A stretch of DNA of 64,000 nucleotides from Hydrogenothermaceae bacterium (GTDB lineage: Bacteria > Aquificota > Aquificia > Aquificales > Hydrogenothermaceae): the NCBI GenBank assembly GCA_026418535.1, contig JAOABC010000002.1, positions 124,001 to 188,000 on the forward strand, written 5' to 3'. Position 1 is the stretch's first letter; the number at the start of each line of letters is the position of its first letter. The position numbers were made by a program, and so were the translations under genes. Under the pieces are notes generated by a model. That model had not been told where the DNA came from. It did no database searches and was given only the letters and a program-made list of their open reading frames with translations. Shown piece by piece: positions 20,044 to 53,264 of the stretch.

Positions 20044-20059
20044 AAAGAGGTTAGTGAAA

Positions 20060-21358
20060 ATGAAAAAATACTTAGCACTAATTGGAATAGTGTCCGTTTT
20101 GTCTTCCTGTGGAGGAAGCGGGGGAAGTAACCAAAATAATATAAATATTCCAGGTAGTATAAATATTCCAGAAAATCAAATATTAATAAAAGGAAGGCTG
20201 AGTGGTTTGGTAGGTTCAAGAAATGAGAGTGGTGGTATACATGCTATGTTAATGAAGATTTTCCCAAATGCTTTTGCTTCTACTTCAACTATAGCAAAAG
20301 TGCTTGTATTTACTCAAAGTGGAAATTTTTGGGTTACTAACGTCAATAATGGAATTTTTTCTGTTGGTGTAGAAAAAGGAACCGTTGTAGGTTTGGTTTT
20401 TTTGGATGCAAACAATAAATTTATAGGATATTTAAATTTAAAAAAGGATTTAGATTCTCTACCTTTAACAAAATTAAAAAGTGGAGTAAAAGAGATTGAC
20501 TTAAAAGAAATAAAGTTAAATGGAAATACATTTACTCCATCTTACATTCCATTAGATCAAGAACTAGAATTTTCGGAAGATGAAAAAAATAGTCTAGAAT
20601 TTATGGATGACTTTTTCTCTTCTGTTGTTAAAAATCCGGATGTAGATGGGAATGGGGTAGTAGATTTAATGGAAAATAAATTCTACAGGTTGGGAATCCT
20701 TTATTTTGTTAAAGCAGGAGAATTTGGAAATAAGCTAACACCAACGTTGAATCAGAGCGTGTATATAAATGGATTTAGACTTAGTTTTGATGCATTTGAT
20801 GAAAACAGGCCACAATATGTGGAATTTACCGGTCCAATTAACTCCGATTTAAATAATGCACCTTCATCACAGGCTAATACCTACCCAAACAGTACTACTT
20901 ACTTTTCTCCTTACATTGGATATAGTCCAGGGTCTACGGGAAATAAAATTCCACCCAGTGGAAGTTATACTGTTTCTTACAAAGGACGTAGTTTTGTGTT
21001 TAATATCCCAGATCAGTCTTCTGCACCTAGCAGAATTGTGATAGCAGTTCCTACCGTAACTTTAAACCAAAATGGAACTATCAATAAGCTAAATTGGGTC
21101 TATAAAATGCCGGCTGGAAATTCTACACTCTCACCAACAGCGGTTATTAGGGAAATAGAAGTTCAAATAGATGGAACAGGAACTAGTTGTAGTTCATATC
21201 CTCAACCAAATAGAATATACAATTCCGGGATGTTAAAACCAGGTGTTGTTGAACACACTCTAAGTTGTCAGAACATAAACTGGCAATCTGTTAGTAGAAT
21301 TCATATGAGTTATAACGATGTTTACGGAAACCATTATGTTATAACTTGGAATAAGTAG
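20060..21358 (+). CDS. Orphan lipoprotein of unknown function
   Basis: A 432-residue predicted lipoprotein. The signal sequence KKYLALIGIVSVLSSC ends in a lipobox cysteine, followed by a Gly/Ser/Asn linker. Around residues 190-205 there is 'NPDVDGNGVVDLMEN', a dockerin/EF-hand-like calcium loop (D-x-D-x-N-G-x-x-D). The rest is beta-rich with many Asn, Pro and Ser. The ATG at 20060 is preferred to the GTG at 20054 because it sits 10 nt after AGAGG. Codons are more A/T-rich (AAA, TTT, AAT) than in neighbouring genes, a possible sign of transfer. I do not recognise the family; a secreted or surface-anchored protein is all that can be said. Confidence 0.75.
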   Translation: MKKYLALIGIVSVLSSCGGSGGSNQNNINIPGSINIPENQILIKGRLSGLVGSRNESGGIHAMLMKIFPNAFASTSTIAKVLVFTQSGNFWVTNVNNGIFSVGVEKGTVVGLVFLDANNKFIGYLNLKKDLDSLPLTKLKSGVKEIDLKEIKLNGNTFTPSYIPLDQELEFSEDEKNSLEFMDDFFSSVVKNPDVDGNGVVDLMENKFYRLGILYFVKAGEFGNKLTPTLNQSVYINGFRLSFDAFDENRPQYVEFTGPINSDLNNAPSSQANTYPNSTTYFSPYIGYSPGSTGNKIPPSGSYTVSYKGRSFVFNIPDQSSAPSRIVIAVPTVTLNQNGTINKLNWVYKMPAGNSTLSPTAVIREIEVQIDGTGTSCSSYPQPNRIYNSGMLKPGVVEHTLSCQNINWQSVSRIHMSYNDVYGNHYVITWNK

Positions 21359-36804: not shown

Positions 36805-36877
36805 GAGTCGCTAGCTCAGTCGGTAGAGCACCGGTCTTTTAAACCGGTGGTCCTGGGTTCGATTCCCAGGCGACTCA
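36805..36877 (+). tRNA. tRNA-Lys(TTT)
   Basis: Full cloverleaf of 73 nt: acceptor GAGTCGC / GCGACTC, D-arm with GCTCAGTCGGTAGAGC, anticodon loop CTTTTAA (anticodon TTT), T-arm CTGGG-TTCGATT-CCCAG, discriminator A. CCA is not encoded. First of three tRNAs in a row. Confidence 0.97.
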
Positions 36878-36892
36878 TCTACAGTCGAATAT

Positions 36893-36967
<75 letters not shown>

Positions 36968-36981
36968 TTCTATAAACATGT

Positions 36982-37054
36982 GGTCGGTTAGCTCAGTTGG
37001 CAGAGCACCTGCTCGACACGCAGGGGGTCATAGGTTCAAGTCCTATACCGACCA
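36982..37054 (+). tRNA. tRNA-Val(GAC)
   Basis: 73-nt cloverleaf: acceptor GGTCGGT / ACCGACC, anticodon loop TCGACAC (anticodon GAC), T-arm ATAGG-TTCAAGT-CCTAT, discriminator A. It ends only 10 bp before the stop codon of the convergent ycbK-like gene, and no terminator hairpin is visible between them. Confidence 0.97.
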
Positions 37055-37591: not shown

Positions 37592-39112
37592 TTATCCTTT
37601 CAGTAGCTTACTTTTTAATATTTTATCATATCCGTATATGTCTTTATAGAAATAAATTATTCTATCCTTAATTAACACAGTGTTATAGAAAGTGTACACT
37701 GTAAAATTTGACTTTAACTTTATCTTTCTGTTTTCTTTACTACTAAACAGAGAGTCCACCCTACTCTGGTCATATCCTTCTTCCTCTAAGAGAGCCTCTG
37801 TGAGAAGCTGTGCATTTTCAAGTCGGATACATCCTGAGCTTGAGGCTCTATTTTCTTTTTCAAACAGCTCTTTATAGGGAGTATCGTGTAGGTATATATC
37901 GAATGGGTTCTCAAACACTATCTTTACCTTACCTAAGGAGTTTTTTTCTCCTGGAAGCTGAATGAGTTTTAAGTTCTGAGGATCTACTGTATACCAGTTT
38001 AAGCTATAAGGACTTATGTGCTTTCCTCCATATATCACTATAAAGTTGTTTTTTTCTAAGTAGGATGCATTTTTCCTTATCTTGGGTAGAAGGTCTTTTA
38101 CCTTTATCTTATCCGGAACATACCAAAATGGGTAGAACTCCACCTCTTTAACCCTCCCAGAGTAGATAAAAGTGGCTCTAAAATCATCTCCCTCTTTCTT
38201 CCCTACTATAGTTCTCATCCTAAATTGGAGCTTGTCTTCTTTATAGAACTCCAAACTGAAAGAAGGTATATTAATTTCTATCCTGTTTGGGTTTAAAGAC
38301 TCTGGAAGCCAACGGAACTTCTCCATATTTATGGCTATATCTATCAGTCTCTCCACTAAAGGATAGTTCAACTCTAGGACTGTTTCCTTTCCCAAAATAC
38401 CATCAGTTTTTAAGCCATGTCTTCTTTGAAAATTCTTTATACCAGCTTCTAACTCTGTATCAAATTCTGCCTTTTCTAAGCTGTCTATACTCTCTAAATC
38501 CCCTAATAGGTACAGTAACTCCCTTATGTAGGGTATATCCGGATGCCTATCTCCAATCCTCAGAGGTTTTCTTATCTTTATGGCTCTTTGGTTAAAGTTT
38601 CTAATTAAGTTATAATAGCCCCTAAACTTTTCTGAGAGTGCATGGAACTGAGGATAAGATGGAGAAAACTTACTATAAAAATTATTCTTATCTAGATCTC
38701 TGGAGAACTGGATAAGGTCTTCTACTATAAAGTCTTTCTTCTTTGGATAGTTCCATGTTTCATATACATCTTTCGGGTTAACTCTTCCAAAGAAGCTATC
38801 ATAAGCAAGCTGGAGTAAACGGTCTGTAAGCAGAATTTCGTTCAGAATTACATCTTCAGTAAGGCTTATCCTATACTTTTCTGGATTCAAACCATAGAAG
38901 AAAGACTCTTCTACAATATCTCTATACTTATCATATATAGAAGAGTCTTTATTCCAGATTAACTCTCCGTTAACCTTAGAGTATAACTTTAACACTCTTT
39001 TATAGTCGTATAAAAATCCCTTCTTGGATATCACTTTCTCTTCATAGAGAGATTTAGAAAAGGAGGAAGTACAGAGTAGAAACAATATAAGGAAAAACTT
39101 AATACTATACAG
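37592..39112 (-). CDS. L,D-transpeptidase (YcbB/LdtD-like) with peptidoglycan-binding domain
   Basis: A cross-linking enzyme of about 506 residues. A PG_binding_1 domain ('GIKNFQRRHGLKTDGILGKETVLEL') precedes the catalytic YkuD domain with 'IYLHDTPYKELFE' and the nucleophile motif SSSGCIRLE. It makes 3-3 cross-links. Start selection is difficult: the nearest standard start is TTG at 39085, with no ribosome site and a truncated signal peptide. An in-frame CTG at 39112 lies 5 nt after AAGG and would give a proper signal peptide (YSIKFFLILFLLC...); I have used it, tentatively. The gene follows tatA closely and precedes the ycbK-like gene. Confidence 0.82.
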   Translation of the reverse strand: MYSIKFFLILFLLCTSSFSKSLYEEKVISKKGFLYDYKRVLKLYSKVNGELIWNKDSSIYDKYRDIVEESFFYGLNPEKYRISLTEDVILNEILLTDRLLQLAYDSFFGRVNPKDVYETWNYPKKKDFIVEDLIQFSRDLDKNNFYSKFSPSYPQFHALSEKFRGYYNLIRNFNQRAIKIRKPLRIGDRHPDIPYIRELLYLLGDLESIDSLEKAEFDTELEAGIKNFQRRHGLKTDGILGKETVLELNYPLVERLIDIAINMEKFRWLPESLNPNRIEINIPSFSLEFYKEDKLQFRMRTIVGKKEGDDFRATFIYSGRVKEVEFYPFWYVPDKIKVKDLLPKIRKNASYLEKNNFIVIYGGKHISPYSLNWYTVDPQNLKLIQLPGEKNSLGKVKIVFENPFDIYLHDTPYKELFEKENRASSSGCIRLENAQLLTEALLEEEGYDQSRVDSLFSSKENRKIKLKSNFTVYTFYNTVLIKDRIIYFYKDIYGYDKILKSKLLKG

Positions 39113-40753: not shown

Positions 40754-41254
40754 ATGAGGAAAGTATACTTATTGGTTATCATGCTTTCTATGGGTTTTAT
40801 ACTATCATCTTCTTGCTCAACGGTAGTAAATAAGATAGATTCTAAGTTGGAAAAAAGGAGAGTCTTTGTGATCCTTCCTTTTGAGAACAATACAGAGACA
40901 CCTTTAGCTGGGATAAGAGTCTCTTCAATGGTTGAAGGGGTAGCAATGTCTAAGGGATACAATGTGAAGAGTGATCTATACTTTAAGGAGTCTAAGGATT
41001 ACACTTCCACAGAAATAGATAACCTTTTACGGGAACTTAGAGAAAAAGAGGTAGACTACGTCATAACTGGCTCTGTAAATGAGTTTAGGTATAAAACCGG
41101 CATAGATGGAGAGCCTGCTGTAAATATTGTCATAAAGGTGATTGATATAAAAAGCTCAAAAATAGTGCTTGTAGGTACCGGTTCCAAAACCGGGTGGTCT
41201 CACGAATCTATAACCACTGTGGCTCAGAAGGTTATAAACAGGCTTCTACCTTAG
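40754..41254 (+). CDS. pelC: Pel exopolysaccharide outer-membrane lipoprotein PelC
   Basis: A 166-residue lipoprotein: signal peptide 'VYLLVIMLSMGFILSSSC' with the lipid cysteine near residue 22, then a TolB-N/CsgG-like domain with 'RRVFVILPFENNTETPLAG' and 'VDYVITGSVNEFRYKTG'. In Pseudomonas PelC forms a ring under the PelB pore. First gene of the Pel operon, 3 bp before pelD. Assignment rests on domain type and, above all, the gene order that follows. Confidence 0.82.
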   Translation: MRKVYLLVIMLSMGFILSSSCSTVVNKIDSKLEKRRVFVILPFENNTETPLAGIRVSSMVEGVAMSKGYNVKSDLYFKESKDYTSTEIDNLLRELREKEVDYVITGSVNEFRYKTGIDGEPAVNIVIKVIDIKSSKIVLVGTGSKTGWSHESITTVAQKVINRLLP

Positions 41255-41257
41255 AAT

Positions 41258-42541
41258 ATGAACATAGACCTAAAGAGCGTATACAAAGAGGTAAATATAA
41301 AGTTCCTTATTATAGAGATCATGATTTTTATCTTGATAATATACGTAATAGGGTCTTTTATAAACAAAGAAGACCCCTTATTTTTAAACTCGGAGCTTAA
41401 CTTCTTATTCCATCTTTTACCTCTGAGCATAATGACCCTTTTTTACGGGATGTTTGCAGGTCTTGTATACTTTTCTCTGTTTTCTGGCGTATCTTTGCTC
41501 ATTTATGGCTCGTTAAACCACACATACTATCTTTCTCTTTTGTTATTTCTACTTATCTTTTCTGAGTTCTGGTTTTACTGGGACAAAAGATTGAAAGAGT
41601 ACAGAGAGAGGTATATATATGCGGATGAAAAGCTAAGAGATATGGCAAGGAACTTACTACTGGTAAAACTCTCCCATGACCAGTTAGAGAGATTTTACGT
41701 CACCAAACCTATAAGTATAAGAAAACTAATCTTTGATATAAGAAAAGATATACTGTCAAATAAGGATAAGGATGAAGTATTGAAAAGGGTATTTGATTTG
41801 GTTGTTGCTAACTTCAATTTGGAAAAAGCGGGTCTCTTTGAATTAGATGAAAAGAATAATCTAATCCATAGGTTAAACACCGGTGGATTGACAGAAGCGG
41901 ATAAAGATGACTCGTTAGTTAAATATGCCATTGAGGATCAAAACATAACATATATAACTGAGATCGTAAAGGAAGAATTTACTAAATATATCTGTGTAAT
42001 ACCATTCTCTGAAAATTCAGAGGTAAAGTACCTCTTGGTTATAGAAAAGATGCCTTTTTTGAACTTAAACTTAGATACTCTGTTATCTATAAACCTAATT
42101 GTAGAGTACGTTTTAAAGGAATTTTCTGACTTAAAAATGATTGAAAGAATATACAAGCGGTTTAGAGAGTTTGGAGTAGAGTTCCTGAAAGAGGTTGAAA
42201 GAATGAACTATATGTATAATAAGTTTAGGATAGAGTCTACAGTGGTATACATGTACGTAAATGATGTAGAGGAGACTGTTCCAGATATGGTGATAGGTAA
42301 CACGAGAGGCTTGGATGTATCTACCAAGCTTGAGTTTACTTCCCAAAACTTCCAAGGTATAGCTATACTTCTACCTTTTACGGACCTTTATGGTGCCAAT
42401 ATGTTTATAAAAAGAGTGTTCGATATATTGAGTGAGAGATTCTCTAGGGAGTATGTAGAAAAGAATATAAAGTATAAAGTTTTTAAAATCAGCAAGCCGG
42501 AGAAACTTCTCCTAGAGTTCTATAGTTTTGAAGGGTTCTAA
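41258..42541 (+). CDS. pelD: Pel c-di-GMP receptor PelD
   Basis: A 427-residue inner-membrane regulator of the Pel synthase. Four N-terminal hydrophobic helices (residues 14-105), a coiled linker (110-150), a GAF domain (about 165-290) and a degenerate GGDEF domain without a GGDEF catalytic motif (300-420). Arg350-Gly-Leu-Asp353 matches the RxxD inhibitory-site motif by which Pseudomonas PelD binds c-di-GMP. This predicts post-translational control of Pel synthesis by c-di-GMP. It ends in TAATG, overlapping pelE by one base. Confidence 0.88.
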   Translation: MNIDLKSVYKEVNIKFLIIEIMIFILIIYVIGSFINKEDPLFLNSELNFLFHLLPLSIMTLFYGMFAGLVYFSLFSGVSLLIYGSLNHTYYLSLLLFLLIFSEFWFYWDKRLKEYRERYIYADEKLRDMARNLLLVKLSHDQLERFYVTKPISIRKLIFDIRKDILSNKDKDEVLKRVFDLVVANFNLEKAGLFELDEKNNLIHRLNTGGLTEADKDDSLVKYAIEDQNITYITEIVKEEFTKYICVIPFSENSEVKYLLVIEKMPFLNLNLDTLLSINLIVEYVLKEFSDLKMIERIYKRFREFGVEFLKEVERMNYMYNKFRIESTVVYMYVNDVEETVPDMVIGNTRGLDVSTKLEFTSQNFQGIAILLPFTDLYGANMFIKRVFDILSERFSREYVEKNIKYKVFKISKPEKLLLEFYSFEGF

Positions 42542-43560
42542 TGACGGTTAAGTATATATACACTTCTATGCTTGTGGAAACAGCTTCTTTTTTTTTCTTT
42601 CTGAATACCCATTCTCTTGCAGGTATTACCTCTATACTGACCTTACATAGTATAGGATTGGTCTTACTACTTATACCGCTTTTAAGCCTTGTTCCAAAAA
42701 GATTTAAAAAGGATCTAAAGAAGACGTCGTTAGCTTTGTTCATGCTGTGTTTTTTTACTCTATATCTTGGTTACATATCCCTATTGGTCTTAACCGTATA
42801 CCTCCTTAGGAAACAAAGGAATTTAGAGTTTAAGCCTTTTAAGTTTTTTTCGATAGGAGATCTTCTTGATGAAGATATTCAGTTTTCCGGAAGGAGATTT
42901 GGAGAAGGATCTATATTTGCTGTTTCTAAAGCAGAAGACGGAAGCAAGATCTTAAAAGAGAGAGCTATCTTATTTGCCTCTGATATAAAGAGTTCTCTAA
43001 CGATAAATATCCTAAAGGAAAGTTTAAGTAGCAAGTACGACGATATAAGGCTGTATGCTTTTAGTGTTGTATCGAAGATAGAAAAAGAGTTCAACGAAAA
43101 TCTGCATAGACTAAAAGAGGAAATAAAGAAAAAAAACTTAACCGACCAAGAGAGGTCAGAACTTCTGTATAATATAGCCAGTCAGTATTACGATTTTGTA
43201 TACTTTAACATAGTAGATGAGGAATTTAGAGAGTTTTTTATAGAGGAATCTTTTTACTATGCAAAAAAATCTTTAGAGTCTTATGAAACTCCTGAGGCTC
43301 TGATACTGTTAGGGAAGATATATTTAAAGCGTAATATGCCTGAGATGGCTCTCCCATACTTTATAAGCGCTTCCAAGTATGAAAACCTAAACCCTCTAAA
43401 ATACGTACCTTACATAGCTGAGATTTACTACAGGTCTGGTCTTTATAGAGATATAGTAGAGATAGTAAATAAGTATCCTCAACTTAAGAGTATAGCAAAC
43501 CCTGATTTAAGGTTTATGGTGGATTTCTGGGCAGGTAGTTATGGAAGTACTGATAGATAA
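42541..43560 (+). CDS. pelE: Pel synthase complex membrane protein PelE
   Basis: A 339-residue protein with two to three N-terminal membrane helices (residues 8-25, 32-52, 64-90) and a cytoplasmic helical region with TPR-like repeats (residues 205-320). This is the layout of PelE, which links PelD and PelG to the glycosyltransferase PelF. Sequence signatures for PelE are weak, so the name depends on its place between pelD and pelF. It overlaps pelF by 20 bp. Confidence 0.82.
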   Translation: MTVKYIYTSMLVETASFFFFLNTHSLAGITSILTLHSIGLVLLLIPLLSLVPKRFKKDLKKTSLALFMLCFFTLYLGYISLLVLTVYLLRKQRNLEFKPFKFFSIGDLLDEDIQFSGRRFGEGSIFAVSKAEDGSKILKERAILFASDIKSSLTINILKESLSSKYDDIRLYAFSVVSKIEKEFNENLHRLKEEIKKKNLTDQERSELLYNIASQYYDFVYFNIVDEEFREFFIEESFYYAKKSLESYETPEALILLGKIYLKRNMPEMALPYFISASKYENLNPLKYVPYIAEIYYRSGLYRDIVEIVNKYPQLKSIANPDLRFMVDFWAGSYGSTDR

Positions 43561-45058
43561 AAGTAAACATATAGATGTTCTTATAATAGCGGAAGGAACT
43601 TACCCATACATAAGAGGGGGTGTTTCTACATGGATCCATGACCTTGTAAATGGGCTACCAGATATAAACTTTGGCATCATCTTCTTAGGTAGTAGAGTGG
43701 AAGACTATGGGGAGATAAAGTATAAGCTTCCGGATAACCTGGTCTACTTGCTTACGGCCTATATTTTTGACCAAATAGAGAGACCCAAACCAAAAGAAAT
43801 AGAAGGCAGTAAAGAGGCTTTTGAATATATAGATAGACTTATAAAGTGGTTTAAATCTACAGGTAACATAGAGTTTCCGGAAGAGTTAAAAAGGTTAGAG
43901 TTCTACACGGAGTTTGTAAAGTATGAGGACTTCCTCTACAGTAAAAGAGCATGGGAGTTCATAGCCCGTATGTATGCAGAGTATGCACCTGAGACATCCT
44001 TCATAGACTACTTTTGGACAGTTAGAAATATCCATGCACCTATATGGGTAGTTACTAACGTTGCTAAGAAAGTTAAAGATTTTAGCATTGTTCACAGTCC
44101 ATCTACCGGATATGCTGGATTTCTGGCCTCTTTACTAAAAAACCACTATAAAAAACCCTTTATACTCACAGAGCATGGTATATACACCAAAGAGAGAAAG
44201 ATAGACCTCTTAGCAGCAGATTGGTTTTTAGACAAAAGACTTTTCTTCCAAAAAGACCTAGGAGAGATAGGCCATCTTAGAAGATTATGGATAAATTTCT
44301 TCTTCAGTATAGGTAAGTTCATATACTACAGTGCAGATAGAATCATATCTCTCTTTCAGGATGCAAAAGAGGTTCAGATTTCTTACGGGGCTGATGAGAG
44401 GAAATGTGTTGTGATACCAAACGGTGTGGATGTTGAAAGTTTGTCAAAGCTTGTGGAAAAGAGGGAGAAAAAGGATTTTAAAGTAGTAGGACTTCTAGGT
44501 AGGGTTGTACCTATAAAGGATATAAAAACATTTATTAAAGCTATGAAGATAACTATAGAAAAAGTTCCAAAGGTGCAAGGTTGGATAATAGGGCCTACTG
44601 ATGAAGACCCAAACTACTTCCAAGAGTGTAAAAATCTTGTAGAATCTCTTGAGATACAGGATAAGGTTCTCTTTCTTGGCTTTCAAAACATAAAGGAAAT
44701 CCTTCCAAAGATAGATATACTTACACTTACTTCCATAAGTGAGGGAATGCCGCTGGTAGTCCTTGAAGGTTTTGCTGCGGGCATACCTTCTGTCTCTACG
44801 GATGTAGGTTCGTGTAGACAGCTTATCTACGGAGGTTTAGACGAAGAAGATATCCAGCTAGGAAAGGCTGGAGAGGTAGTTCCTATCTCTAACCCTCAAA
44901 AGCTCTCAGAGAGTTACATAAAACTACTGACCGATGATAACCTTTGGTTGAAGTGCCAAAAGGTCGCTCTCCAGAGGGTAAACAGATACTATACCAAAGA
45001 GAGTTTTTTAAACGCCTACCGAAACCTTTATTCAGAGGCAAAGAGATGGCCGGTATAA
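43541..45058 (+). CDS. pelF: Pel polysaccharide glycosyltransferase PelF (GT4)
   Basis: A 505-residue cytosolic GT-B glycosyltransferase that polymerises the Pel chain from UDP-sugars. N-terminal 'IIAEGTYPYIRGGVSTWIHDLV' (residues 14-35) is the PelF signature; the donor-site domain has 'LGRVVPIKDIKTFIKAM' and the E-x7-E motif in 'SEGMPLVVLEGF' (near 415). Length fits PelF (about 500). The ATG at 43541 lies inside pelE; the last 13 bp overlap pelG. Confidence 0.93.
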   Translation: MEVLIDKSKHIDVLIIAEGTYPYIRGGVSTWIHDLVNGLPDINFGIIFLGSRVEDYGEIKYKLPDNLVYLLTAYIFDQIERPKPKEIEGSKEAFEYIDRLIKWFKSTGNIEFPEELKRLEFYTEFVKYEDFLYSKRAWEFIARMYAEYAPETSFIDYFWTVRNIHAPIWVVTNVAKKVKDFSIVHSPSTGYAGFLASLLKNHYKKPFILTEHGIYTKERKIDLLAADWFLDKRLFFQKDLGEIGHLRRLWINFFFSIGKFIYYSADRIISLFQDAKEVQISYGADERKCVVIPNGVDVESLSKLVEKREKKDFKVVGLLGRVVPIKDIKTFIKAMKITIEKVPKVQGWIIGPTDEDPNYFQECKNLVESLEIQDKVLFLGFQNIKEILPKIDILTLTSISEGMPLVVLEGFAAGIPSVSTDVGSCRQLIYGGLDEEDIQLGKAGEVVPISNPQKLSESYIKLLTDDNLWLKCQKVALQRVNRYYTKESFLNAYRNLYSEAKRWPV

Positions 45059-46419
45059 GTTTTGAACTTAGAAAAGTTCTAAGAGAAAATACCTTAACAT
45101 CCATTTTTAAGGCTTTTGGTTACTCTGTAGCCTTAAGTTCTGGTCCATATATTATAAGTATACTTTCTCTGATCGGACTTCATTTTCTATCTTATGAAGT
45201 CATAAAAGACAAAACGGTCTTAATCAAATTCCAAGTATCAGTTACTTACCTTATAGCCTTCAGTCTAATATACACCGGTTTTAGCCAGTTGTTTTTTACA
45301 AGATACGTGGCTGATAGAATTTTTGAGATGGATTACGGTAGAGTACTACCTAATTTTATAGGCATAACCATCCTGAACATGGTTCCTGCCTTCTTTTTAT
45401 CAATACTGTTTAGTGTGGTATTCTTAAGTAAAGAAGCGGGATACTTTTTTTCCTTACTTTTTTCCTTTACATTTACAATCTTAACTGGAATATGGATGGT
45501 AAACATAGTTCTAACCAGTTTAAAAAGTTATAAGTTTATACTTTTTTCCTTCTTTACTGGATATGCTACCTTTCTACTTTTTGCTTACTTACTATCCGAA
45601 TTTGGTTTAAACGGTCTAATATTCTCCTTCTTCTGTGGCCAATCGATTCTGTTTACCCTACTACTATTTTACTTTATATACCAACACTACTCTGACACTT
45701 TTATGGAGTTCGATTTCTTCAGCAGAAAAAAAATACACATCTCATTGATTTTTACTGGGTTTTTCTATAACTTAGCTCTGTGGGTAGATAAATTCGTATT
45801 CTGGTTCAATGATCTAACTGGAACTATAGTCTTAGGACCTATGAGATACTCTATAGTCTACGATATTCCCATATTCTTAGCTTATCTAGCAATAGCTCCT
45901 GGAATGGCAATATTTTTCCTTAAGTTAGAAGGGGAGTTTACCCTTTACTACGATAGATACTACTATGCAGTAAGGAACGGCCTAACTCTTGAAAAGATAT
46001 ACACGTATGGGGACCAAATGATCTCATCAGCTAGGGCTGTAATACTAGATACTATAAGACTACAAGGTGTGTTCGATATAATAGTGATTATGTTCGATGA
46101 GTTCTTATTCAATGTGTTTAAAATACCACTGATATATCTTCCACTCTTTCACATACTCTTATTTGGAGCCTACCTTCAGCTGATTCTACTGGCCATTTTT
46201 GCCTTATTCTTCTACTTTGATAGGAGAAGAGAGTCTTTGATACTGGCTTTCTCCTTCTTTATATTAAACCTCTCACTCAGTGGTATGACTGTTCTTTTAG
46301 GGCCGTACTTCTACGGCTATGGTTTTACAGTATCCATCTTTATAACTGTTGTAGTATCTCTTTTGCTCTTAAGGAAATTTTTACACCAGATTCACTACTA
46401 TACCTTTATGTTAAGATAG
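45046..46419 (+). CDS. pelG: Pel synthase membrane transporter PelG
   Basis: A 457-residue polytopic protein with about 12 hydrophobic helices of the MATE/Wzx-like type. N-terminal 'GISFELRKVLRENTLTSIFKAFGYSVALSSGP' is characteristic of PelG. It moves or conducts the Pel chain across the inner membrane with PelD and PelE. The ATG at 45046 is preferred; an upstream in-frame ATG at 44944 would add 34 residues from the pelF coding region. Confidence 0.9.
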   Translation: MAGISFELRKVLRENTLTSIFKAFGYSVALSSGPYIISILSLIGLHFLSYEVIKDKTVLIKFQVSVTYLIAFSLIYTGFSQLFFTRYVADRIFEMDYGRVLPNFIGITILNMVPAFFLSILFSVVFLSKEAGYFFSLLFSFTFTILTGIWMVNIVLTSLKSYKFILFSFFTGYATFLLFAYLLSEFGLNGLIFSFFCGQSILFTLLLFYFIYQHYSDTFMEFDFFSRKKIHISLIFTGFFYNLALWVDKFVFWFNDLTGTIVLGPMRYSIVYDIPIFLAYLAIAPGMAIFFLKLEGEFTLYYDRYYYAVRNGLTLEKIYTYGDQMISSARAVILDTIRLQGVFDIIVIMFDEFLFNVFKIPLIYLPLFHILLFGAYLQLILLAIFALFFYFDRRRESLILAFSFFILNLSLSGMTVLLGPYFYGYGFTVSIFITVVVSLLLLRKFLHQIHYYTFMLR

Positions 46420-46439
46420 TTTCAGTGGAGGTGAGAGAT

Positions 46440-49199
46440 ATGGTTAGATTTTTTATAGTTATGATCTTGGCGATTTTTACAGTATATGCAGGTGAAGGAA
46501 GAGGAGAGGATTTATCTGTTGGTTTTATTTACAAGAAGGATATTCCGGAGGAGGCTTTTTACCTCTTTGACTGGCTGGTAGTAGAGCCGGACAACTTCGG
46601 TCCGGAGTATCTGAAAGAGAGGTTCTATATAAAGAACAAAAAGTCTAAACTTATCGCCTATGTAAGTTTAGGAGAAGTAGAGAAAAGTAGGACTTACTAT
46701 AGTAGGCTAAAAAAAGAGTGGATTTTGGGAGAGAACAGAGGTTGGGACTCTAAAATCGTAGACCTAAGACTAAAGGAGTATGTGGATTTTATCTTTGAGA
46801 ATGTATTCCAAAAGCTTAAAGAATACGATGGGTTCTTCCTTGACACACTAGATAGCTACCAGCTTGTCCTTAAAAGTGAAGAAGACAAGAAAATGTACGA
46901 AAAAGCCATGGTAGGTGTGATAAAGAAACTCAAAAAGATGTACCCAGACAAAATAATTATAACGAACAGAGGTTTTGAAATAGTAGATGAAGTTAATGGA
47001 GATATAAACGCTCTAGTTGCAGAAAGTCTCTTCTATGGTCTTGAGGTAGGAAAAGAGATAAGGTATAAGAAGATGAAGGAAGAAGACACAAAGTGGTTGC
47101 TAGACAAGCTGAACTATGTAAAGTCAAAAGGTATAAAGGTTATAGTGATAGACTATGTAGAGCCAAAGAACAGAAAACTTCAAAAGGAAGTGGCCAGAAA
47201 GATCTACCAGCTTGGTTTTATACCATACGTCACTGATAGGTTTTTAAACACCATAGGGACGGGTATATATCAGTTAAAACCGAGGAAAGTCCTACTTATT
47301 TACGATGGATCTGAGCAGAGTGACCCTGCATACTCTGACATCCACAGGCTTATACAACCTTGGATCGAGTATTTTGGATACATTCCAGTCCTTGTAGAGT
47401 TAAACCAAGTACTAGAGGGTGGAAAGTTCAATGGGGATATGGCAGATGAGTATAGGGCTGTGTTTATAAAGGCTTCTTCTGTGAAAAATCCTTCTAGATT
47501 ATTAAAATGGCTAACAGACAGAAAAAATGAAGGTATAATGATATTTTTTGTGGGATACTTACCTTTTCCATTGGAGGAAAGCTATCTAAAACCGTTTAAC
47601 ATAAGGAAGGTAGGTCAACTTAACCTTCTTGATAAGTATGAGATAACAAGATCGACTTTTAAATTCTTTGAAAGTGAACCAAGGTTAGAATCAGTTCCTA
47701 TGCTCCAAGTAGATAACCCTATACATTACATTGAAGTGAAATCCAACAGTAAATTGTTTTATTCTCTAGCGATCACAGACTGGGGAGGATATGCTCTAGA
47801 TGGGACTCTACTTATCTTTTCTGGAAAAGATGCTCTCTTTGGAGTCAATCCTATAGACTTTTTTAATAAACTGATGCCCTCGGATTTTCCTATCCCTGAC
47901 GTAACAACAGAAAACGGAAGAAAGATACTTACAGCTCATATAGACGGAGATGCAGGGTTCGGAGTTGCAGATTTTGACACATCAAGGAATCTTATGGAGA
48001 TAACCAGGGATGAGATAATAAAGAGATACAACATTCCACATACTGTATCTATCATAGAAGGAGAGGTAGCCCCTTACGGTCTTTATCCGGATAAGTCTGA
48101 AAAGCTAGAAAAAATTGCAAAGTCCATCTTCCAACTTGAGAATGTAGAGCCTGCAAGTCACTCCTTCTCCCATCCTTATCGGTGGCAGAAACTGGAAAAA
48201 CTACCAGAAGAAGCAAATGAATCGTATGAATCGTACAATCTAAACATAAAAGGATATAAGTTTGACCTAGAGAGAGAGATATCCGGTTCTGTTGAGTATA
48301 TAAACAGAAAGTTACTTACAACAGGTAAGAGAGTTGAGATGTTCCTTTGGACAGGTGACTGTGTTCCATCAACAAACGCACTTAGAATGGCTTATAGAAG
48401 TGGATTGTATAACGTTAACGGTGGATACACATGGATTAGCAAAAAGCAACCTTTTTTCAGTTATATAAGTCCTATGGGTCTGGATAGAGATGGCTACTTT
48501 CAGATATATCCACCTGTACAGAACGAAAACATATATACGAACTTATGGATAGACTACTATGGTTATAGAAGAGTTATAGAGACTTTTGAGATGACAGAAA
48601 GACCTCACAGGTTAAAGTCTATATCTATATACTACCATTTTTACTCTGCACAGAAGATTGCTTCTCTAAAGGCTTTAAAAGAAGTGTACGAGTATGCTCT
48701 TTCTCAGAGAGTAAATCCTATGTTTTTATCTGAGTACGCTCAGAGAGTCTTAGAGTTTCGCAGTACTGCTATAGGAGAGGACATAAGGGATGGAACTACA
48801 GTTGTAAGGTCAGGAGGAAACCTAAAAACTTTGAGAGTTAGTAGAGATATTGGTTATCCTGATGTTTTCAGGAGTACCGGTGTTGTTGGTTTTGAAGACC
48901 ACAACGGATACAGGTATATACACTTAGACAACTCTGGAAGTTATAGGCTCATACTGAGCGATACAGAACCATGCTTTTACTTGAAGGACTCCAACGGTCA
49001 AATAATCGAAAGTAAGAAATCAAAGATGTTGGCTTTCAAGATAAAGTCTACGATACCCTTAGATTATAATTTTTACTGTGATAACTGTCTTTTTAACCTG
49101 AGTCCAAAACCAGAACACTTAGAGAAACAAGAAAAAATCATAAAAGTAAGATACAAGAGTGGTAAAGAAAGTTATGTGGAAGCCTACTGTAAGGAGTAA
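46440..49199 (+). CDS. pelA: Pel periplasmic hydrolase/deacetylase PelA
   Basis: A 919-residue exported protein. Signal peptide 'VRFFIVMILAIFTVYA'. The N-terminal glycoside hydrolase domain (GH166-like, residues 25-270) has 'YVSLGEVE', 'FFLDTLDSYQ' and 'VIDYVEP'; a middle Rossmann-like region follows (280-470); the deacetylase domain (CE18-like) has 'TAHIDGDAGFGVADFD' near 500, 'ASHSFSHPYRW' near 575, and 'TGDCVPS'. These are metal-binding Asp/His and catalytic residues. It modifies Pel during export. ATG at 46440 is 8 nt after GGAGG. Confidence 0.9.
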   Translation: MVRFFIVMILAIFTVYAGEGRGEDLSVGFIYKKDIPEEAFYLFDWLVVEPDNFGPEYLKERFYIKNKKSKLIAYVSLGEVEKSRTYYSRLKKEWILGENRGWDSKIVDLRLKEYVDFIFENVFQKLKEYDGFFLDTLDSYQLVLKSEEDKKMYEKAMVGVIKKLKKMYPDKIIITNRGFEIVDEVNGDINALVAESLFYGLEVGKEIRYKKMKEEDTKWLLDKLNYVKSKGIKVIVIDYVEPKNRKLQKEVARKIYQLGFIPYVTDRFLNTIGTGIYQLKPRKVLLIYDGSEQSDPAYSDIHRLIQPWIEYFGYIPVLVELNQVLEGGKFNGDMADEYRAVFIKASSVKNPSRLLKWLTDRKNEGIMIFFVGYLPFPLEESYLKPFNIRKVGQLNLLDKYEITRSTFKFFESEPRLESVPMLQVDNPIHYIEVKSNSKLFYSLAITDWGGYALDGTLLIFSGKDALFGVNPIDFFNKLMPSDFPIPDVTTENGRKILTAHIDGDAGFGVADFDTSRNLMEITRDEIIKRYNIPHTVSIIEGEVAPYGLYPDKSEKLEKIAKSIFQLENVEPASHSFSHPYRWQKLEKLPEEANESYESYNLNIKGYKFDLEREISGSVEYINRKLLTTGKRVEMFLWTGDCVPSTNALRMAYRSGLYNVNGGYTWISKKQPFFSYISPMGLDRDGYFQIYPPVQNENIYTNLWIDYYGYRRVIETFEMTERPHRLKSISIYYHFYSAQKIASLKALKEVYEYALSQRVNPMFLSEYAQRVLEFRSTAIGEDIRDGTTVVRSGGNLKTLRVSRDIGYPDVFRSTGVVGFEDHNGYRYIHLDNSGSYRLILSDTEPCFYLKDSNGQIIESKKSKMLAFKIKSTIPLDYNFYCDNCLFNLSPKPEHLEKQEKIIKVRYKSGKESYVEAYCKE

Positions 49200-50310
49200 A
49201 TTCACAGACAATAGAGAGTTAACAGTATTTATAATTCTTGTAGTAAGTGTAATGATACTTCTTTATCCAAAAGGAAAGATAGAGAACCTTATTTTGAATT
49301 ACAAAGACTATAACATCGATTTGGGAAACATATACTTAGAGAACCTTACAAGGATAAATAGAGACCCTAACTTAAGATTGCTATTAGCTCAGAGGTATGC
49401 TCAGATTGGAGACATAAAGAGGTCGGAGGAAATTTTAAGAGAGTTAGAGAATACAGAACTAAGAGATAAAGTCTTAATGGTTAGATATGAGAGATTAAAA
49501 TTCATGTACTTCTCAACAGAAGATTCAGAAAGCAAGAAAATGTATAAACAGAGTATGAGAGAGATGCTAGAGCATCTCTACAGAATAAGTTATGATCTGA
49601 GAGTGCTAGAAAAGATACATACTGAATCTATAAGTATGGGATTAGTAGATGTAGCATTGAAGACAAGTATAAAAATCAGTAAACTTAAGGATGATGAAAA
49701 TGTACACTGGCTAAAGGTAGTATACAAAAACGCCTTAGCTACTGAAAACTACCAAGTAGCATTAAAGTACTGTGATTTACTAAAAGTAAAAGATAGGGAG
49801 AACTATCTTTTTTGGTTAAAAGAGGAGTATAGAATAGCTTCTGGATTAAAAGAGTACATAACAGCATTAGAAGACGCTCTTAAACTTCTGATCTTAGAAA
49901 GCGGAGAAAAGTATAAAAAGGACATAGTTTATTTACTCTCAAAATCCCAGTCTACTGAGGTTATATTTCAGTATATAGATAAATATCCTAATAGGAAGTA
50001 CACTCTTTTTGAGATACTGGCAGACTTTTATATCCTAAACAAAGACTACAAGAATGCTTTCTCTTTATATGTAAGTATATATGTAGCCGAAAAAAATAAG
50101 ATAAACAGAAGGAATCTCTTTAAAAAGATTGTGACTCTACTTTTGGGTTCCCGTCGTTATGAGGAAGTAAAGATGTTTATAGGAGAAAATTACAGAGAGC
50201 ATATTCAAGACATAGAGATGGCAAAGTTTATACTCTCTTCTTCCCTTGCCACAGGGGACCCGGATTTTTCCTATAAAATAGCTAAGGATATCCATAGGTT
50301 GATAAGATGA
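49174..50310 (+). CDS. PelB N-terminal part: inner-membrane-anchored TPR protein (PelB1)
   Basis: A 378-residue protein with one membrane helix, 'LTVFIILVVSVMILLYP' near residues 16-34, and helical TPR-like repeats after it (residues 45-370). In Pseudomonas this part is fused to a TPR/outer-membrane barrel as PelB; here the two parts are separate genes. ATG at 49174 starts inside the end of pelA; a GTG at 49159 is an alternative. The stop overlaps the next gene by 4 bp. Confidence 0.75.
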   Translation: MWKPTVRSKFTDNRELTVFIILVVSVMILLYPKGKIENLILNYKDYNIDLGNIYLENLTRINRDPNLRLLLAQRYAQIGDIKRSEEILRELENTELRDKVLMVRYERLKFMYFSTEDSESKKMYKQSMREMLEHLYRISYDLRVLEKIHTESISMGLVDVALKTSIKISKLKDDENVHWLKVVYKNALATENYQVALKYCDLLKVKDRENYLFWLKEEYRIASGLKEYITALEDALKLLILESGEKYKKDIVYLLSKSQSTEVIFQYIDKYPNRKYTLFEILADFYILNKDYKNAFSLYVSIYVAEKNKINRRNLFKKIVTLLLGSRRYEEVKMFIGENYREHIQDIEMAKFILSSSLATGDPDFSYKIAKDIHRLIR

Positions 50311-53264
50311 AGAAGGCCAGCTTAACCGTCTCTGGACTCTTGATTCTTTCAGGATACTCTTTCGGGGAATACACTCTTAATAGAAAAGAATCGACTAAAA
50401 ACTACACAATAGAAACAAAAGATTTTATTCTTAATATCCTTAATAAAAGAGAATCGACTAAAAACTACACAATAGAAACAAAAGATTTTATTCTTAATAT
50501 CCTTAATAAAAGAGAATCGACTAAAAACTACATGAACAAAGGTCAACCACATGATGAAGTAGAACACAAAAAAACGGTAAGAGTAGTAGATGAGGAGCTT
50601 CTTAAATTACTCCTGATAGCTCTCTTAGGAAAAAACGACATAGAAAGTGCCTATGATGTTGCAAAAAAAGGTATAGAACTCTTCCCAGATAAGGAGTACT
50701 GGTGGGAACAGTACGGTAAAATAGCCGTTTGGTCCGGGAGAACAGTAGAATCATTTACAGCCTACCAGAAGATATTCGAAATAAACCCATCAAGAGAAAA
50801 TGTATTAAAACTGTTTAGAATTTCTCTATTAGTGAACCGGTTTGACATTACTTCAAACCTGCTTGAGAGGTACGATTTTCTGTTTTCAGAGCTGAAAGAC
50901 ATAAAGGATATGGTTTACATATTCAAAAAAAGTGGCAAGATAGAGGAATTTATAAAACTTTTATCGGAGAGGTATAAAAAAGAGAAAAATCCGGAGTATC
51001 TTTATCATATAGCTTCTCTCTTCTATGATGTAGGTAATATCCAAGAGTCTTTAAAATTTATCAGAGAGTTAGAAGAGAAAAGATCTTTAAAGATAAACGA
51101 GATTATTTTTTACTCTAGCATACTGTATATTTTAAAGAGACCTGTAGATTCTTTCAATGTTTTAAGTCGTTATGAGAAGTTTGTTCTTTCAGAGCTATCT
51201 AAAGGAAATAAAGATAATTTAAAAGATGTGCTAGAGTACTATCAAACTTTCTCAGACTTAGCCTGGTTTTTAAAAGAGTATGAAAAAGCTATTTATACCA
51301 GTAAAATATTGGATGAGGTAGAAAATGGTAGGTTAATTGACTATATAAGACTATGCTCGTTTTTTAGTTCAAAGAAAGACTATAAAACTGTATTAGAGTA
51401 TGCAAGAAAAGGTTATAAGAAGTATAAGAACAGCTATTTACTCTCAGCATATGTAGAATCTCTATATAGACTTAAAGACTGGAACAGTATAGTAACTCTA
51501 TCATCAGAAGAAGACATAAAAGAACAACTCCTTAAAGATATATACCTTTTTTCTCTATACAACAGAGCTCTTGTAAAGAGTTGGAAAAGATCTGAAGCAT
51601 TAAAGAATATAAAAACTATACTGAAACAGAACCCTTCAGAAGAGTTTATTTCTGAATCTATATTTCTTGCCATAGAGAGTTCTGACAAGGACATTGCTAA
51701 CTACATCTTGTCTAATTTAAAAAAATATGAAAACAGTTTACCTAAACAGTTTGCTATCCTTTACTTATTTCTACAGAACACAAAAGACGCGCTTAACCTC
51801 CTTTCAAAGGTAGATAAAAACAATCTGGAGGACTTATTACTTTTTGCGGACATATTACAGAATTACGGTAGGGTGGAAGAGGCTCAGCGTATTAAGTATC
51901 AGATTTTTAGGGAGTTATCAAAAGAGGATATATTCAACCTTGACTCTTCTAAGATCGAGTTTTACCTGAAAGTAGGCATAGATTTTCTTAGTGGTTCCTC
52001 TCTGGATAAACTATTCAAAATAGCTAAAGAGAGGTTAGAGCCGGAGGTTTACGAAGATATATACTTCTCTTATATACTCAAACTGATCAAACAAGAAAAA
52101 CTTCTGTATATATTAGAAAAACATAAAAAAACTCTAAGACCATGGATGTACCTTAACCTCTCCTTATGGATGGATGATAGGTACTGGCAGGGAGAGCTGT
52201 TAGAGAAGTTTGGGGATATACTCCCTATAAGGGATAGAGTGGAAGCCCTAAGAAGAACTGGCCAGATAAAGAAAGCCGGATACTATGCCTTTAAGGGTTT
52301 AGAGGAGAACAGAGAAGACTTTTCACTCTACAAACAGTTTAGAGATCTAATATACAGTAACTACTCAAAAATAGAGAACTCTCTATCTTACACAAGCTGG
52401 GACAGAGTAGAAAACTTTAGAGAAAATCTTTTTATAAGATACTACTTTGAAAAAGGTCTATATTTTAACTATGATTTCTTAGATGTCTTCAAAATAAAGA
52501 ACAGCAATCCTAACTACACTAACATCGGTTTAAAATTCCACAGTTTCAGAGTTGCAAAGCAGACGGATAAAAGAAAAATAGAAACTGGGGCTTCTTACAT
52601 TGACGGTGTGGAAGAAAGTACTGGTTTTGTATTTAGATATACTGAATATCTAGGAAACAGAACTTCCTTAGATTTATTTACTGGATTTAATCAACTCTCT
52701 TACGAAAGTTTGTACATGTTTTTTGGTGGAATGAAAGATAGTTATTCCTTATCTTTAACCCATAACCTAAACAATAGAGCATCTTTCTATTTGTCTAGTA
52801 TTTATGATGTATACAAATCTCAGGATGAGAAAAAGATTGGATATGGGAATACATCTTATGGAGAAACATCTTACAAGGTAAGGATTGGCTATCCTGACTA
52901 TACTTTTAGACTATACTTGCAGAATAGTAACTTTAACGAGAAAAACACAGATAAGGGAAGTATAAACAAGGTATCATCCAAACAGAATCCGGACGTTTTA
53001 CCACCAAGCTATGGCTCTGTAGGTATAGGATTTCTCTTTGGGCTTGATAACAGAGACAACTACGTTAGGGTTTGGAGACCTTTTTTCTCTGCGGATATAG
53101 TTCTAAACAGTAGGACCGGATTAGGATACGGACTGTCTGCAGGTATAGGTGGAACATTCTTTAGACAGGATAACCTTTCAACTGGACTTAAATATATACA
53201 AGACTTCAAAGGAACTACAGCATCCTTCTGGGAGTATTACTTTAAGTATCTACTACTCTTTTAA
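50307..53264 (+). CDS. pelB: PelB C-terminal part: TPR scaffold and outer-membrane beta-barrel (PelB2)
   Basis: A 985-residue exported protein. Signal peptide 'KKASLTVSGLLILSGYSFG'; then a 21-residue tandem repeat (residues 28-69), TPR-like helices (90-690), and a C-terminal porin-like barrel (about 700-985) with alternating aromatic strands ending in 'YYFKYLLLF' with terminal Phe. This is the Pel export pore with its periplasmic scaffold. It overlaps PelB1 by 4 bp. It is the last gene of the operon; lepA begins 41 bp later with no visible terminator. Confidence 0.85.
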   Translation: MKKASLTVSGLLILSGYSFGEYTLNRKESTKNYTIETKDFILNILNKRESTKNYTIETKDFILNILNKRESTKNYMNKGQPHDEVEHKKTVRVVDEELLKLLLIALLGKNDIESAYDVAKKGIELFPDKEYWWEQYGKIAVWSGRTVESFTAYQKIFEINPSRENVLKLFRISLLVNRFDITSNLLERYDFLFSELKDIKDMVYIFKKSGKIEEFIKLLSERYKKEKNPEYLYHIASLFYDVGNIQESLKFIRELEEKRSLKINEIIFYSSILYILKRPVDSFNVLSRYEKFVLSELSKGNKDNLKDVLEYYQTFSDLAWFLKEYEKAIYTSKILDEVENGRLIDYIRLCSFFSSKKDYKTVLEYARKGYKKYKNSYLLSAYVESLYRLKDWNSIVTLSSEEDIKEQLLKDIYLFSLYNRALVKSWKRSEALKNIKTILKQNPSEEFISESIFLAIESSDKDIANYILSNLKKYENSLPKQFAILYLFLQNTKDALNLLSKVDKNNLEDLLLFADILQNYGRVEEAQRIKYQIFRELSKEDIFNLDSSKIEFYLKVGIDFLSGSSLDKLFKIAKERLEPEVYEDIYFSYILKLIKQEKLLYILEKHKKTLRPWMYLNLSLWMDDRYWQGELLEKFGDILPIRDRVEALRRTGQIKKAGYYAFKGLEENREDFSLYKQFRDLIYSNYSKIENSLSYTSWDRVENFRENLFIRYYFEKGLYFNYDFLDVFKIKNSNPNYTNIGLKFHSFRVAKQTDKRKIETGASYIDGVEESTGFVFRYTEYLGNRTSLDLFTGFNQLSYESLYMFFGGMKDSYSLSLTHNLNNRASFYLSSIYDVYKSQDEKKIGYGNTSYGETSYKVRIGYPDYTFRLYLQNSNFNEKNTDKGSINKVSSKQNPDVLPPSYGSVGIGFLFGLDNRDNYVRVWRPFFSADIVLNSRTGLGYGLSAGIGGTFFRQDNLSTGLKYIQDFKGTTASFWEYYFKYLLLF
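50388..50531 (+). repeat. 63-bp tandem duplication in pelB2
   Basis: Two full identical 63-bp units (50388-50450 and 50451-50513) and 18 bp of a third (50514-50531). Each unit encodes 21 residues (ESTKNYTIETKDFILNILNK plus R). They keep the reading frame and lie just after the signal peptide. The exact identity points to a recent slippage or duplication. Confidence 0.97.

Follow-up and report, generated by a model that had tools for sequence, protein, structure and literature searches.

We found that eight adjacent genes at positions 40754-53264 (+) of the window, the whole stretch of 64,000 nucleotides analysed from contig JAOABC010000002.1 of a Hydrogenothermaceae bacterium, very probably encode a functional-looking Gram-negative Pel exopolysaccharide system gated by cyclic di-GMP (c-di-GMP) and carrying a two-subunit PelB, with the sugar itself being predicted. 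The genes are tightly packed in the order pelC-D-E-F-G-A-B1-B2, and together they supply all the parts of such a system, namely PelF, PelG, PelD, PelE, PelA, PelC and both the scaffold and the barrel of PelB. A full eight-gene Pel system had been proposed from the letters alone (hereafter the original prediction); every frame lies where it had been placed, and both profiles and PDB matches agree with it. Searches of this kind for PelD, PelF and PelA, put forward as the check on the proposal, all returned matches, so it was not refuted. The same eight-gene block was seen again in most other Aquificota loci sampled and in other phyla, indicating that it is not a product of chance. The system is mostly ordinary in kind, its gene set, order and split PelB being previously on record for thermophiles. 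Our additions are modest: the fixed site at which PelB is divided, the spread of the split over both gene orders, and SPOR domains in PelB2, on which a narrow search of the open-access literature found no prior report. The features of the locus are as follows.

40754..41254, + strand: pelC, outer-membrane lipoprotein of 166 aa with lipobox SSSC and Cys21; Trp148 corresponds to Trp149 of P. aeruginosa PelC (PaPelC)
41258..42541, + strand: pelD, inner-membrane c-di-GMP receptor by homology, with N-terminal transmembrane (TM) helices, GAF, degenerate GGDEF, RGLD I-site R350/D353, and R386
42541..43560, + strand: pelE, inner-membrane tetratricopeptide repeat (TPR) protein of 339 aa with 2 hydrophobic segments
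43541..45058, + strand: pelF, GT4 glycosyltransferase, the Pel polymerase (NF038011)
45046..46419, + strand: pelG, polytopic inner-membrane exporter with 12 hydrophobic segments (PF16933 and hydropathy)
46440..49199, + strand: pelA, periplasmic hydrolase (GH114/GH166-like) and CE21 de-N-acetylase, with a longer frame from GTG 46425
49174..50310, + strand: pelB1, inner-membrane-anchored TPR rail equivalent to the N-terminal part of PelB, with TM helix 13-30 and then a helical solenoid
50307..53264, + strand: pelB2, signal peptide followed by a TPR scaffold (96-685) and a 16-stranded barrel of the outer membrane (688-984)
50376..50532, + strand: in-frame tandem repeat of 63 bp in 2.5 copies, in the pelB2 linker directly after the signal peptide, predicted disordered

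All eight frames are open and none is broken. With pelA starting at 46440 and pelB1 at 49174, the spacings are +3 (C/D), -1 (D/E), -20 (E/F), -13 (F/G), +20 (G/A), -26 (A/B1) and -4 bp (B1/B2), in agreement with the predicted overlaps of 1-26 bp between genes. The start of pelA is likely ATG 46440, not GTG 46425, with the ribosome-site sequence GGAGGTGAGAG just 5′ of the ATG, and therefore a 20-bp gap lies behind pelG; ATG 49174 is the most likely start of pelB1. Given this packing, one transcript for the whole block, as had been proposed, is plausible.

PelF matched the NCBIfam equivalog NF038011 at 635.7 bits (E 6e-191) against a cut-off of 100, and is ~44% identical to proteobacterial PelF; PelG matched PF16933 at 415.5 bits across 1-454. 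In phmmer searches PelC matched solved PelC structures (5t0z, E 6e-21; 9h80_C, E 5e-19), and among Aquificota its lipid-carrying Cys is found in 22/22 and its Trp, the residue required for PelBC assembly (PMC12141448), in 19/22. PelD matched PelD_GGDEF (PF16963) at 33.4 bits against a cut-off of 27, and a PDB sequence search returned solved PelD (4etx/4dmz, E 3e-6) with the RGLD motif aligned. Its R350, D353 and R386 align with R367, D370 and R402 of PaPelD, residues which are required for c-di-GMP binding in P. aeruginosa (PMC2170427) and B. cereus (PMC7112168). Across Aquificota the first arginine is kept in 19/22, the aspartate in 22/22 and R386 in 21/22, indicating that the predicted c-di-GMP site of PelD is retained. 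PelE, which sits between pelD and pelF, gave weak TPR matches and no match to PHROGs, and a profile grown from it matched the PelE-position gene of a Pseudomonas-like pel locus at 206 bits.

PelA aligned over residues 31-883 with the crystal structure of Pseudomonas thermotolerans PelA (9cgy, E 3e-137), and its GH114-like domain scored 69.1 bits in a profile search. Numbered from GTG 46425, with PaPelA numbering taken from PMC12022489, the hydrolase glutamate E200 and the deacetylase residues H505, D507, D509, H579, H583, E701 and H738 all align with PaPelA catalytic residues, and these are unchanged in 21 Aquificota PelA apart from one E->D. A cationic polysaccharide had been foreseen by the original prediction; the intact deacetylase site fits this, and the polymer itself stays a forecast.

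The genome (G000) belongs to Aquificota and is 1.47 Mb in size and 99.9% complete. Its PelF is 75% identical to that of 'Hydrogenothermaceae bacterium SKW173' (same-genus relative G078), with Sulfurihydrogenibium yellowstonense next closest among named records; with such a relative, the thermophile that had been supposed is a fair reading. GGDEF domains scored above the cut-off at ten places in the genome, some with stops, two PilZ domains were found, and a GalE is encoded elsewhere (TIGR01179, 478.7 bits). Both signal (c-di-GMP) and precursor can thus plausibly be made, with the GlcNAc/GalNAc specificity of GalE being putative. An alternative is that this pel-like locus makes a different polymer, of another sugar or with other processing, and not GalNAc/GalN. 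Sequence does not reveal the chemistry of a polymer, PMC7112194 warns that the products of divergent pel loci may differ in composition, and the ~44% identity of PelF leaves room for such a shift. However, PelF lies six-fold above the equivalog cut-off, the PelA hydrolase glutamate and full CE21 site are found in 21/21 Aquificota save the one substitution, and GalE is in the genome; we therefore regard a different polymer as unlikely.

PelB is encoded by two genes. PelB1 (378 aa) begins with an uncleaved-looking N-terminal helix that ends in LLYPKG, where one-chain PelB has LLFPR or LLFPK. Its AlphaFold model consists of a TM helix and a helical solenoid with a predicted local distance difference test (pLDDT) of 90.7, and its PDB matches are TPR folds. 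In PelB2 (985 aa) the signal peptide is followed by a linker predicted to be disordered (14-94), by a TPR-like solenoid (96-685) and then by 16 beta-strands (688-984), the barrel matching PF24604 at 126.8 bits. Its model has a pLDDT of 85.9, falling below 50 over residues 14-94, and the best PDB fold match is P. aeruginosa PelB (9h80_M) with a TM-score of 0.79 over the solved part. Against the one-chain PelB profile, PelB1 covers positions 8-313 (E 2e-26) and PelB2 runs from position 289 onward (E 8e-84). The two together span the one-chain profile with no major part lost, and each half carries a separate targeting signal. That PelB1 is an independent TPR protein merely adjoining PelB is highly improbable: the Pfam scan found no TPR in the PelB1 of the window and conservation of the sequence is poor (15-49% identity), but PelB1 corresponds to the first quarter of one-chain PelB and shares its TM and LLFPK/LLYPK start, and PelB2 takes up the profile at the point where PelB1 leaves off.

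We then compared loci from 20 Aquificota genomes, 80 loci of a named genome collection and five Pseudomonadales loci. This sample is biased toward relatives of the window PelF (the best 80 of at least 581 loci), and several loci are contigs of metagenome-assembled genomes (MAGs) cut at their ends. Just two gene orders were observed, C-D-E-F-G-A-B and A-B-C-D-E-F-G, requiring a single change on both the PelG and the PelF+PelG trees. The gene-order comparison within Aquificota, suggested along with the original prediction, recovered the same block in most other loci, from three families, and it is also kept in Campylobacterota, Elusimicrobia and some 'Deltaproteobacteria' MAGs. The C-first order is normal for Aquificota and most Campylobacterota examined and is not specific to this genome. 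A two-gene PelB was present in 36 loci of the C-D-E-F-G-A-B order (with two repeat contigs, L063 = L041 and L065 = L052) and in 8 of the A-B-C-D-E-F-G order, the latter being three Geobacteraceae, Alloalcanivorax, Curvibacter, a Rhodanobacteraceae MAG, a gammaproteobacterial MAG and one further relative. One-chain PelB was found in 26 loci of the A-B-C-D-E-F-G order, and in three of the C-D-E-F-G-A-B order plus one truncated; these C-first loci (L075, L083, L089 and L084) group in one, otherwise Campylobacterota, clade.

Two departures in layout were observed. The barrel gene pelB2 is relocated upstream of pelC in the Thermocrinis-like loci L053, L086 and L090, and in all three the PelD I-site RxxD has become KxxD, so that c-di-GMP control may differ there. 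In L052/L065, C-D-E-F and G-A-B1-B2 stand on opposite strands and are convergent.

Over the whole alignment, the join lies at the same site relative to a one-chain reference in 27/27 aligned split PelBs. The halves were also scored separately, with PelB1 found by a search of one pass and scored on a one-chain PelB profile. PelB1 ended at about profile positions 273-283 in most systems, a few reaching as far as 318, and PelB2 started at 271-297. An iterated PelB1 profile was discarded, as it spilled over into the TPRs of PelB2. With L165 as the bridge, its match to PaPelB (9h80_M) running the whole length, the join corresponds to about residues 282-288 of PaPelB. TPRs 9-14 of PelB are needed by PelA, and the PelB fragment that was crystallised covers residues 332-436, TPRs 8-11 (PMC12022489). 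The position of the join suggests that the split keeps the PelA-binding repeats on PelB2 and leaves the first repeats on PelB1. These first repeats are the ones suggested to lead the polymer away from the inner membrane, and since the join falls just ahead of the PelA-binding repeats, an inner-membrane rail (PelB1) would be parted from a PelA-binding outer-membrane part (PelB2). The break likely marks a hinge or hand-over point. An AlphaFold3 kink in PaPelB described 'after the eighth TPR' (PMC12022489) is near, but not at, the join site. The fixed split offers a natural experiment on the proposal that one PelB chain bridges both membranes (PMC12141448), as about half of the sampled Pel systems have no single PelB chain able to do so.

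Several observations weigh against a functional Pel system in this genome. PelG was found in 49/136 Aquificota genomes, leaving 87/136 without the system, and pel genes are broken in relatives: pelG and pelA carry stops in L056 (G114), as does pelG in G117, and the system is therefore dispensable in the phylum. PelE is the weakest assignment, drawn mainly from position, topology and a remote profile, and PelD scores just 30 bits to solved PelD. Promoter and terminator consensus scans, dropped as proof of a single transcript, gave counts no better than shuffles, so that co-transcription rests on spacing. No c-di-GMP riboswitch or other leader RNA was found where we looked for them, upstream of pelC. 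Expression, the polymer and its chemistry are all predicted from the genes.

The patchy distribution across the phylum, the broken L056 genes and a pelB2 repeat private to this genome might together be taken to mean that the operon was recently acquired and is now in decay or seldom used, the PelB split and the repeat being signs of damage. We consider this very improbable, as the frames are all open with catalytic residues intact, the repeat is in frame within a linker predicted to be disordered, and the same join occurs in 27 systems from several phyla. Given this identical join and the membrane-targeting start that each half has of its own, the split appears to be a stable design in a working system. 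The repeat copies are 97% alike; the repeat occurs nowhere else in the genome and is missing from the same-genus relative L041, which rules it out as a mobile or repeated element.

We next asked whether PelB was divided or joined. PMC7112194 terms the thermophile form 'pelB fission'. On an outgroup-rooted tree, a two-gene root required four changes and a one-gene root five by hand count, with a computed minimum of four, and the one-chain Campylobacterota clade is nested among two-gene loci. The root is weak, the PelFG outgroup branches of Fusobacteria and Azospirillum being very long (~3 changes per column). Had one pair of genes fused several times over, a shared join would result, but several fissions could also be drawn to a natural domain boundary. 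The tree thus weakly favours a two-gene ancestor, whose chances we put at about even. The fuller proposal, that two-chain PelB is ancestral and most widespread, that the one-chain PelB of Pseudomonas and Burkholderia is a derived fusion, and that PelB2 is tethered to peptidoglycan by SPOR domains in several lineages, is offered tentatively, at slightly below an even chance. If true, the membrane-bridging model rests on a derived one-chain form.

SPOR domains, which bind denuded peptidoglycan (PMC6895207), lie between the signal peptide and the first TPR of PelB2 above the Pfam cut-off in L049, L058, L080 and L042 (two stretches), and 5/25 PelB2 have matches at E <= 0.01. The window PelB2 has no SPOR domain; its 63-bp repeat occupies the place where relatives have one. 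A full-text literature search for PelB with SPOR returned nothing on a Pel exporter by title and abstract. Weaker SPOR-like 'CYTVQL' stretches were observed in Sulfurimonas-type PelB2. At L042:13000-17555, PelB is in three genes (314, 529 and 673 aa), of which the last is the barrel gene with its own signal peptide and SPORs.

Compared with pelABCDEFG of Pseudomonas aeruginosa, the locus shares all seven functions, the PelA active sites, the PelD RxxD, the PelC lipoprotein and a 16-stranded PelB barrel with TPR scaffold. It differs in order, with pelC first and pelA-pelB1-pelB2 last, as had been noted, where Pseudomonas has A-B-C-D-E-F-G, and in having PelB as two chains, of which PelB1 has a non-cleaved inner-membrane helix and PelB2 its own signal peptide. 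Gene order by itself does not define a Pel system. Pel in Aquificota, a rearranged order and a split PelB have already been published (PMC7112194, Fig 5(iii); PMC12022489; PMC12141448). By its legend, the thermophile clade of that figure has pelB in two pieces and a rearranged order; compared at the level of this legend, with a main text that names no species for the clade, that order is very likely the one seen here. PelB homologues have been named for Sulfurihydrogenibium azorense and Persephonella marina (PMC12141448). Campylobacterota loci (Sulfurimonas, Sulfurovum and Arcobacter MAGs, L070-L106) have the same order and mostly the same split PelB, but differ in the one-chain subclade described above and in many PelB2 with SPOR-like N-termini. 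The Bacillus cereus pelDEA_DA FG locus (PMC7112168) shares the PelD/E/F/G core and the PelA deacetylase, but is without outer-membrane PelB and PelC and has the PelA hydrolase as a separate gene. The BcsC and PgaA exporters of cellulose and poly-N-acetylglucosamine have the same TPR scaffold and 16-stranded barrel, and BcsC structures are the next-best PelB2 folds after PelB; their systems have other synthases and modifying enzymes and no PelC ring.

We propose that GalE, whose gene is present in the genome, would provide UDP-GalNAc. c-di-GMP from GGDEF enzymes would bind the PelD RGLD site and activate the PelDEFG inner-membrane synthase, in which PelF would polymerise and PelG export; the genes and binding residues are in place, and their action is assumed from Pseudomonas. 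The chain would then pass along the inner-membrane PelB1 TPR rail to PelB2, a relay suggested by the observed architecture. PelA, with its catalytic residues present, would dock on the N-terminal TPRs of PelB2, the side indicated by the split position, and would trim and partly deacetylate the chain, rendering it cationic. The polymer would exit via the PelB2 barrel ringed by PelC, both folds being matched or modelled. Such a system would yield a galactosamine/GalNAc matrix bearing positive charge, which could serve cells growing attached or as streamers; the polymer expected of a Gram-negative Pel system is an alpha-1,4 GalNAc chain that has been deacetylated in part. Hot-spring and vent Aquificota thereby gain a concrete candidate matrix polymer, cationic and under c-di-GMP control, and a thermostable Pel complex could aid structural work.

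The block is flanked upstream of pelC by a divergent yqeY gene, beside which a short divergent frame resembles rpsU by eye, and lepA begins ~40 bp past pelB2. Elsewhere in the window, a 434-aa open frame at 20054-21358 (+) has no Pfam match at E 1e-4. An L,D-transpeptidase (YkuD, scaffold and peptidoglycan-binding domains) is encoded at 37592-39085 (-), a short way upstream of pel, and three tRNA genes cluster at 36805-37054 (+), upstream of the L,D-transpeptidase and YqeY genes.

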